The position numbers and the translations under genes were made by a program. Of a stretch of DNA of 64,000 bases, positions 2,244 to 4,569 are shown in pieces. The first letter of the stretch is position 1; each line of letters begins with the position of its first letter. A model generated the notes under the pieces. It was not told the origin of the DNA and searched no databases. It saw nothing but the letters and a program-made list of their open reading frames with translations. The stretch covers positions 1,488,001 through 1,552,000 of the forward strand of contig NZ_CP110005.1 of the NCBI RefSeq assembly GCF_025947225.1, in the 5' to 3' direction. This DNA is from Flavobacterium sp. N2270. GTDB lineage: Bacteria > Bacteroidota > Bacteroidia > Flavobacteriales > Flavobacteriaceae.

Positions 2244-2813
2244 TTAACACTTGTCAATTTCAAATTTCATTACACCATTTTTGTATTGAATAAAAACAGG
2301 TATTTTTTCTAAAGTACAGCGAGGTTCAATGGTAAATTGAATATAACCTCTAACTTCAAAATCTTCAGTAGTTGTAATTTGAATTCTTTGTTTATAAGAC
2401 ATGTCAACTCCTACCCAATTCGTCAAACCTTTGTCATTTGTACTAGAATTAAACTTTTTATTAGATAGAGGTGTTTCAACGAGGTTCTTATTTAAGATAA
2501 ATGACTCATTGTTGTTTATAAAAAAAGTGAATTTACCTTTAAGATCTCTTTTAGCATTTGGAGAAGCATAATACGCATCGTTGTAAAGAAGCATTTGTAT
2601 GTCTAAATCATAAAAATCATTACTTAGTTTGTGTATGTCGAGTTTTATGTCATAAGGTTGAGTTGGTAAATTTGGACCATAAACAGATTGCGTACTAATT
2701 TCTGATTTTGGAAGTTGAGCAAAATTACTTTCAATATTAGATTCAGTTTTTAAACGATCTATTTTACAACTTAGAAAGATTAATATACAAAGAGAAAGGA
2801 TTAATTTTTTCAT
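2244..2813 (-). CDS. Lipoprotein of unknown function
   Basis: I do not recognise this 189-residue protein. It opens with a short lipoprotein signal (MKKLILSLCILIFLSC) whose lipobox FLSC puts the lipidated Cys at residue 16. The mature part is polar, with alternating hydrophobic residues that suggest beta strands. Two late cysteines, one in the PRCTLEKIP segment and one as the last residue, could form a disulfide. It is transcribed toward ychF, and no partner gene is adjacent. It is probably periplasmic or outer-membrane anchored. Confidence 0.8.
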   Translation of the reverse strand: MKKLILSLCILIFLSCKIDRLKTESNIESNFAQLPKSEISTQSVYGPNLPTQPYDIKLDIHKLSNDFYDLDIQMLLYNDAYYASPNAKRDLKGKFTFFINNNESFILNKNLVETPLSNKKFNSSTNDKGLTNWVGVDMSYKQRIQITTTEDFEVRGYIQFTIEPRCTLEKIPVFIQYKNGVMKFEIDKC

Positions 2814-2878
2814 TTTTATGTTTTTTAGATATTGAAATTTTGTAACAGAGTAAAATTACAATTTGCTCAATGTTAAAG

Positions 2879-2916
2879 TGTCAAAAAAGTGTCAAAAAAA
2901 TGTCAAAAAAATGTCA
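2879..2916 (+). promoter_or_regulatory. Four TGTCA boxes at exact 11-bp intervals (candidate operator)
   Basis: TGTCA begins at 2879, 2890, 2901 and 2912. The first three are followed by six A residues. The 11-bp direct-repeat spacing and the TGTCA core are those of the pho box bound by PhoB-type winged helices. The array lies 46 to 83 bases before the ATG (2962) of a gene whose product carries such a domain. Confidence 0.6.
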
Positions 2917-2961
2917 ATACTTGTAAAATGTTATGAAATTGTATGTTATTTGCAAATAATT

Positions 2962-3837
2962 ATGAATTACTATATCAAATATCTATTTAAAGTTTTACTC
3001 ATTTTAGGACTGTTTTCTTGTATGTTTTCTTGTTCTACGGAATCTACTGAGGATTCTTCTGGACTTGTAAAAGTGGCATTACGCAATGTTGGACATCATT
3101 TATTATTAATTAATCATGATTCTGTGTCGGTTGTAAAACCCGTAAAGAAATTAGACGAATTAAAATATCAATTATCATTTGAACAACAATTAATCATTAA
3201 TCCAGATAGTTTAATAACTCTTGTAAAAAACAGCTTTCAAAAAGCAAATTTGCCACAACATTATTTGGTTGAAGTAATTCAGTGTAAAGATTACGAAGTA
3301 GCTTATAGTTACCAAATGAATCAAAATACAGAAAAAGGGATAATTCCTTGTAAAGGAAGACCGTTAAATAAAGCCTGCTACTTTATTAATGTTCAATTTA
3401 CAAAAAGTATAAAGGTAAAAAAAACCGATTCTTATTCTTGGTTGATATATGTTTTATTGTTTGGAATTTTAGGAGTTATGTTGCTTTTTTATTTCAAACG
3501 AAAAGCTAAAATTGTTTCTTCAGATGAATATTCAGAAAATTATGCAACAATTGGGAAATATAAGTTTTATCCTGAACAAAATATACTGATAAAAGAAGGT
3601 GTTAAAATAAGTCTCTCAAAGAAAGAATGTGAATTGTTGGCCATTTTTATTTCAAAACCTAACCAAATTATTAAAAGAGACGAGTTGTCTAAAAAAGTTT
3701 GGGAAGATAACGGTGTATTTGTAGGAAGAAGCCTCGATACGTATATTTCAAAACTTAGATTGAAATTAAAATATGATGAATCTGTTAAAATTATAAATAT
3801 TCATGGAGTTGGGTATAAATTAGAGATTAGTAATTAA
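2962..3837 (+). CDS. Membrane-anchored OmpR/PhoB-type winged-helix regulator
   Basis: This 291-residue one-component regulator has a signal or anchor segment at residues 3-23 with two possible lipoboxes (LFSC, Cys20; MFSC, Cys24). An extracytoplasmic domain of about 130 residues follows, with two or three Cys, then one transmembrane helix (about 160-178). The cytoplasmic C-terminal trans_reg_C domain (about 195-290) contains KKECELLAIF, KRDELSKKVW and the wing motif HGVGYKL. There is no receiver or kinase domain, so sensing must occur directly through the outer domain. I start at the ATG at 2962. The frame is open upstream to a TTG at 2863, but that stretch merely translates the TGTCA array. 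The signal sensed is unknown. Confidence 0.85.
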   Translation: MNYYIKYLFKVLLILGLFSCMFSCSTESTEDSSGLVKVALRNVGHHLLLINHDSVSVVKPVKKLDELKYQLSFEQQLIINPDSLITLVKNSFQKANLPQHYLVEVIQCKDYEVAYSYQMNQNTEKGIIPCKGRPLNKACYFINVQFTKSIKVKKTDSYSWLIYVLLFGILGVMLLFYFKRKAKIVSSDEYSENYATIGKYKFYPEQNILIKEGVKISLSKKECELLAIFISKPNQIIKRDELSKKVWEDNGVFVGRSLDTYISKLRLKLKYDESVKIINIHGVGYKLEISN

Positions 3838-3885: not shown

Positions 3886-4569
3886 ATGAAAAAACTAAAA
3901 AATACCTTTAAGGTTTTACTAAAATCAGTTTTAGGAATTATTGCTTTTTTATTGGTTTATGCGTTAGTAATAGTCATAATGTCGGTAATAACAGTAAATG
4001 ACAATGTTGTTGAAAACAATAAAAACATTCCAATTTACATACTTTCAAATGGGGTACATACAGATATTGTAGTTCCGTTAAAAAACGAAATAAAAGATTG
4101 GTCTCAAGACATTTCATATCTAAACACTAAGGCAAAAGATTCTACACGACAAAATTTAGCCTTTGGATGGGGCGATAGAGGTTTTTATTTAGACACACCC
4201 ACTTGGGCAGATTTAAAAGTTTCAACAGCATTAAATGCTATTACGGGTTTAAGTTCGTCGGCAATGCACATAACATTTTATGGTCATTTAAAAGAAGATG
4301 AGTTTTGTAAACAAATACTGATTTCCAAAACGCAATATGAAAGCCTTATTGCTTATTTTGAAAGCAGTTTTCAGTTGAATGAATTAGGGAAAATTCAGCA
4401 AATTGGTACGCATTCTTATGGCAAACACGATATTTTTTATGAAGCTAAAGGAAGTTATAATTTGTTTTATACCTGTAACACATGGGCAAATCAAGCTTTA
4501 AAATCGGCAAAACAAAAATCAGCACTTTGGACTGTTTTTGATAAAGGAATTTTTTGGCATTATGAGTAA
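3886..4569 (+). CDS. TIGR02117/DUF2459 family protein, membrane-anchored
   Basis: This 227-residue protein has one N-terminal transmembrane segment (about residues 10-35) and an extracytoplasmic domain carrying the family signatures NGVHTDIVVP (about 56-65), GWGDRGFYLDTPTWADL and YTCNTWANQAL. Family function is not established. The conserved His near the start and a conserved Cys near the end (CNTW) are arranged as in circularly permuted NlpC/P60-like thiol hydrolases, which is my inference. It lies 48 bases after the membrane regulator on the same strand and may be co-transcribed with it. Confidence 0.85.
   Translation: MKKLKNTFKVLLKSVLGIIAFLLVYALVIVIMSVITVNDNVVENNKNIPIYILSNGVHTDIVVPLKNEIKDWSQDISYLNTKAKDSTRQNLAFGWGDRGFYLDTPTWADLKVSTALNAITGLSSSAMHITFYGHLKEDEFCKQILISKTQYESLIAYFESSFQLNELGKIQQIGTHSYGKHDIFYEAKGSYNLFYTCNTWANQALKSAKQKSALWTVFDKGIFWHYE

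Follow-up and report, generated by a model that had tools for sequence, protein, structure and literature searches.

Upstream of the gene for a putative membrane-borne transcription regulator in Flavobacterium sp. N2270 lies a tandem array of TGTCA-type boxes, situated in a stretch of 64,000 nucleotides (NZ_CP110005.1, positions 1,488,001-1,552,000 of the forward strand) which as a whole is called the window below. Our comparative analysis suggests, with a probability of roughly 0.84, that this array is the operator of the regulator encoded at 2962-3837 and would serve both the regulator gene and the divergent exported gene at 2244-2813. The role as operator for the encoded regulator is well supported, because the phasing of the boxes is kept, the array is tied to the gene genome-wide, and the boxes track the recognition helix of the protein. 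An earlier reading made from the letters alone (the sequence-only reading) had proposed an autoregulatory operator; the comparison supports this proposal and amends it, in that the operator is probably bidirectional, its core consists of three TGTMA boxes plus a TGTAA at 2922, and similar boxes precede other genes for exported proteins in relatives. The array and the two genes are as follows.

2879-2889, plus strand: extra 11-base-pair (bp) unit (TGTCAAAAAAG); relatives have no such unit, and the distance to an upstream motif is 11 bp longer here
2890-2900, plus strand: core box 1, TGTCA, placed by alignment A3
2901-2911, plus strand: core box 2, TGTCA here and TGTAA in most relatives (box counts, A3)
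2912-2921, plus strand: core box 3, TGTCA, from which the step to the next box is 10 bp (box counts, A3)
2922-2926, plus strand: box 4, TGTAA, kept in 54 of 80 relatives and overlapping the putative forward -33 TTG at 2921-2923
2962-3837, plus strand: regulator of 291 amino acids, ATG at 2962 (Trans_reg_C match, AlphaFold2 model, fold matches)
2244-2813, minus strand: divergent putative lipoprotein of 189 amino acids, the presumed target, whose homologues are the nearest divergent gene in 21 of 80 relatives (cluster 2)

The TGTCA boxes start at 2879, 2890, 2901 and 2912 of the plus strand with an exact period of 11 bp and A-rich spacers, just as the sequence-only reading had described, and TGTAA follows as a fifth box at 2922 after a 10-bp step. 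Its description of the array as four boxes holds in that the four are present, but it overlooked the TGTAA at 2922, which belongs to the conserved array, and it counted the box at 2879, which relatives do not share. The four-box pattern with at most three mismatches occurs once in the window versus in 0 of 100 dinucleotide shuffles. A genome search for three or more phased boxes, which had been proposed as a check, places the exact three-box pattern at the array locus only within the 2,791,361-base genome; three other places carry two mismatches to it, compared with two for a reversed control pattern.

To examine conservation, 80 loci (the best 80 of 96) were fetched from a public genome collection by protein similarity alone, and many genera of the Flavobacteriaceae are named in the record titles. 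All 80 have three TGTMA boxes with 11-11 spacing, so that the loss of phasing in orthologues, which would have spoken against the operator, is not what we find; the array scores 15 of 15 letters in 65 loci, 14 in 14 loci and 13 in one, 79 thus scoring at least 14, and among 400 shuffles one reached 13 and none 14. Box-anchored comparison identifies 2890, 2901, 2912 and 2922 of the window as boxes 1-4 of the conserved array, the exact TGTMA 10 bp past box 3 being the one shared by 54 relatives. An exact box 11 bp upstream of core box 1 is found in 0 of 80, and the near relatives L006, L035 and L262 have three TGTCA boxes each. Because an upstream TAAAnnTA motif stands 39 bp from core box 1 in the window, 11 bp more than the 28-29 bp seen in 60 of the 80 relatives (the remaining 20 have no exact match to the motif), the 2879 box is best regarded as an added 11-bp unit. 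Alignment A3 of 81 sequences, with 79 mostly non-coding columns, has a mean column identity of 81%, compared with 56% for the protein alignment, and outside the array and two -7-like motifs the information per column is mostly at most 0.5 bits. The reading frame of the regulator is open back to a TTG at 2863, and the sequence-only reading rightly warned that the stretch can be misread as coding; since only 31 of 80 relatives have a frame that runs open through box 1, the stretch is not conserved as coding.

The link between array and regulator was followed genome-wide with two models, R1, a sequence-only model of the array, and R2, composed of the reverse -7 element and boxes 1-3, both run on the same 299 genomes of the family. 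All 50 R1 matches at an E-value of at most 1e-10 directly precede a regulator gene. In the array-regulator count, which took 80 R1 rows down to E 8.3e-4 and left out weaker ones, and which used 77 of 79 protein places after two partial matches were dropped, the array accompanies 58 of 61 close regulators (E <=1e-59) and 1 of 16 more distant ones. Among 101 genomes of the genus it occurs in three, exactly those with a close regulator (G000, G061 and G078), and in 0 of the 14 with a full-length regulator of the distant type. Some searched genomes may belong to the same species as the training relatives of R1 and R2, and therefore the presence of the array there would be partly by construction, while its absence elsewhere is unaffected.

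Away from regulators, R2 gave 27 matches at E <=0.001, 21 of them in 17 of the 76 regulator-bearing genomes versus 6 in 6 of the 223 others (p 4.7e-7). By manual count, 22 of these secondary sites have a gene pointing away from box 1 at most 132 bp from the matched stretch, one of them (G383) also lying inside a called frame; the other five comprise two inside reading frames and three with the nearest such gene at 199, 885 and 1136 bp. Twenty of the 22 genes look exported by eye, the exceptions being G118 (ABC-permease-like) and G196:C10 (no signal), and 14 of the 21 non-adjacent R1 matches end short of the forward -7. A recurrent target at secondary sites, twice in genomes without a detected regulator, is an exported family (L191, L193, L194 and L252) whose members have about 410 residues and share a conserved CDxxxxxQNL motif.

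At the level of the class, a search of 295 Bacteroidia genomes finds the regulator in 42 of them at E 1e-40. The class-level reading rests on 16 of these 42 matches, as 20 loci were returned and four left out, namely L261 (the window), L262 and L264 (same family) and L016; the 16 are not all independent, given that L271-L273 share a single genus and that L263 belongs to the close type. Among these 16 loci from other families of the class, phased triplets with spacings of 10-11, 12-9 or 11-11, equalled by at most 1 of 200 shuffles, occur in 12, L263 included. Boxes and protein also vary together: across the 100 loci whose helix and array could both be used, residue 260 of the recognition helix covaries with base 4 of the box, as expected if each regulator reads its own array. 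Where this residue is Thr (78 loci), 155 of the 234 boxes carry C at base 4, 73 carry A and 6 carry G, and where it is Met or Val (22 loci), base 4 is A in 65 of 66; 13 of 113 loci were left out of this count, five for an unmatched helix pattern and eight for an array score below 14 (including L008-L010). As a separate observation, same-genus loci of the distant type (L011-L021) show, upstream of the regulator, TGTAA boxes spaced at 12 and 9 bp and, in 9 of 11, a TGACA just 5' of the start codon, and 8 of the 11 by eye face another exported family, whose members have about 185 residues.

That the downstream gene encodes a winged helix of the PhoB superfamily, as the sequence-only reading held, is confirmed by a Trans_reg_C match (PF00486, E 7.9e-18) in the C-terminal part of the protein. 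The AlphaFold2 model has hydrophobic helices at 3-23 and 159-181, a mixed alpha-beta domain at about 29-147 and the winged helix at 193-291; the listed fold matches to the latter span residues 186-291 and include ToxR, SaeR, CadC and PhoB structures. Residues 1-190 are modelled as the two hydrophobic helices around an alpha-beta domain unlike a receiver, Pfam gives no receiver match up to E 0.1, and a structure search with the middle domain modelled alone (predicted template modelling score 0.82) gave no clear match. On this model the regulator probably sits in the membrane with a putatively periplasmic domain at about 29-147, and helix 3-23 of the window protein could be a cleaved or lipoprotein signal.

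Compared with known systems, the array resembles the Escherichia coli pstS pho box, which consists of TGTCA direct repeats at 11 bp as well (TGTCATAAAACTGTCATA, in an excerpt of PMC10294691), and the regulator shares the winged-helix fold of PhoB (1gxp, 1qqi). Unlike PhoB, it is without a receiver domain and putatively membrane-borne, and unlike the pho box, the arrays here are A-rich, number three to five boxes and stand at a divergent gene pair. In ToxR, according to an excerpt of PMC5936718, the winged helix is N-terminal and cytoplasmic and the periplasmic domain C-terminal. Like ToxR and CadC, both among the best fold matches, the regulator carries its winged helix on the same chain as a putative periplasmic domain, but the order of the domains is reversed, the winged helix being C-terminal both in the window regulator and in the consensus of alignment A2, and where the ToxR family has a single membrane-spanning helix, two hydrophobic helices are modelled here, the first of which may be a signal in the window protein. 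With the OmpR/PhoB response regulators it has the C-terminal Trans_reg_C domain in common, whereas their N-terminal phosphoacceptor receiver domain was not found. The nearest named winged-helix sequences are RprY and the Bacteroidota PhoB (NF051850, NF053854), yet the scores fall far under the curated cut-offs (83.7 of 370; 56 of 270). The regulator appears to work like the ToxR type on a PhoB-type array while belonging to neither family, and our literature search found no description of this Bacteroidia membrane regulator family.

As for the gene on the other side of the array, an upstream gene was called at 79 loci, and at 75 of these the nearest one runs on the opposite strand; a divergent gene stands at most 235 bp away in 73 of 80 relatives. 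A hydrophobic N-terminus is seen in 73 of 73 divergent genes versus 117 of 263 other neighbours, and export is the common trait of the divergent families. These include YceI (PF04264; 41 of the 80 nearest upstream genes, cluster 0), a secreted family, the lipoprotein family (21 of 80) to which the window protein at 2244-2813, itself without a Pfam or NCBIfam match, belongs, a TonB_2-like family whose match is below the Pfam cut-off, and beta-lactamase-fold hydrolases. The PF00144 match for the last of these was made on the gene that follows the regulator in L101 and is homologous to the secondary target in G105. In L086 the divergent gene looks as if a beta-lactamase-fold hydrolase had been joined to the secreted 'cluster 1' domain, two families that are elsewhere separate targets.

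Candidate promoter elements can be placed on both sides of the array.

2945-2952, plus strand: putative forward -7 element GTTATTTG, assigned to the promoter of the regulator, with conservation of 90% or more in the GTT and TTT columns of A3
2882-2884, minus strand: putative reverse -33 TTG, from the outermost box, 23 bp from the reverse -7
2851-2858, minus strand: putative reverse -7 element TAATTTTA (minus-strand reading), a TAGTTTTA/G-like motif at a fixed distance to box 1 in relatives

Read on the minus strand, the upstream motif is TAGTTTTA or TAGTTTTG in most of the relatives' rows, close to the flavobacterial -7 consensus TAnnTTTG at positions -12 to -5 as given in an excerpt of PMC9723704, and on the plus strand the TTG at 2921 stands 21 bp from GTTATTTG. 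The regulator transcript would then start near 2957 with a leader of 5 nucleotides and the divergent one near 2846. A perfect TAnnTTTG (TACTTTTG) is also seen before the distant-type regulators L008-L010, where it ends 4 bases before the ATG, and the mRNA there would therefore be leaderless or nearly so. In the mechanism that we propose, the C-terminal PhoB-type winged helix would bind head to tail on the TGTMA boxes, at intervals of roughly one helical turn, with the regulator staying in the inner membrane and the periplasmic domain sensing a signal. The outermost boxes would overlap the -33 elements of both divergent promoters, and for this reason a single bound array could control the regulator's own gene, by autoregulation, together with that of the exported protein at 2244-2813.

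With respect to the direction of control, the boxes extend upstream from the -33 at both putative promoters at a fixed phase, because of which we lean towards activation of both genes. The same operator and regulator could also act in repression, the bound boxes over both -33 elements silencing the two genes until a periplasmic signal arrives; the -33 TTG does lie within boxes on both sides, the divergent -7 is near its consensus, and relative to the divergent gene the boxes are oriented the other way round from pho boxes, but boxes reaching beyond each -33 at fixed phase would be superfluous for a simple blocker and the forward -7 (GTTATTT) looks poor, as at activated promoters, so we hold repression to be a minority possibility. 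It is improbable that a response regulator of the RprY or PhoB type from the same genome reads the array and has the membrane protein as just one of its targets, since both the presence of the array, in the 101 genus and 299 family genomes, and its sequence, through the recognition helix, track the membrane regulator. Such a reader would nevertheless fit the resemblance of the winged helix to RprY (E 1.2e-23), the four further genes with matching winged helices in the genome, and the box-like site kept in six genomes without a detected full-length regulator. In these six, searched at E 1e-27, only winged-helix matches to the C-terminal part of the query were found, and because they carry a secondary site, another winged-helix protein may read similar boxes. 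That the repeats are coding or born of slippage, with no regulatory role, is hardly credible: the frame is open to the TTG at 2863 and the 2879 unit resembles a slippage duplication, but only 31 of the 80 relatives, all of which have the array, share the open frame, and the score of 14 reached by 79 loci was reached by 0 of 400 shuffles.

Several observations weigh against the array being the operator of this regulator and of the divergent gene. An R1 match is absent at 3 of the 61 close regulators, although TGTMA-like boxes are visible by eye at all three; 4 of the 16 other-family loci are without a significant triplet; and 7 of 80 loci have no divergent gene inside 235 bp. No second site was found in the window's own genome, and the strongest secondary site among the six genomes without a detected full-length regulator, in G299, reaches E 8.6e-12. 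The covariation of helix and box follows clades, hence few independent changes are involved, and it may reflect perhaps just two or three events. Read in the direction of the divergent and secondary genes, the boxes are TGACA; this is the inverse of the orientation of the pstS pho boxes and weakens the case for activation at these genes.

Beyond the operator itself, one may think of a Bacteroidia-wide, inside-out ToxR-like family, in which each operator is matched to its own recognition helix and the divergent exported partner (YceI, lipoprotein, serine hydrolase or others) is interchangeable, the partner or its substrate feeding back on the periplasmic domain in a self-contained sensor-effector cassette; we consider this extension speculative and rather unlikely as a whole. 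If the proposed operator is true, it would give a named operator, a base-to-residue specificity rule and a starting regulon for widespread Bacteroidia membrane transcription factors, a simple system in which to study how a winged helix fixed in the membrane gains access to a tandem array, and, through the added 11-bp unit natural in the window's genome, a handle on the effect of such a unit on output.

In the neighbouring sequence, CTGAGCTTGTCGAAGT at 2109-2124, between the lipoprotein gene and the gene ending at 2091, which we take to be ychF-like, is a dispersed repeat with 10 copies in the genome at no more than one mismatch versus 0 for a reversed control. A long A/T-flanked hairpin at 2138-2171 (one found versus a shuffle mean of 0.9) lies between two convergent genes and is possibly their shared terminator. 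On the other side, a DUF2459/TIGR02117 gene at 3886-4569 starts 48 bases past the regulator, and the 14 largest clusters of neighbouring genes in the relatives do not include it.
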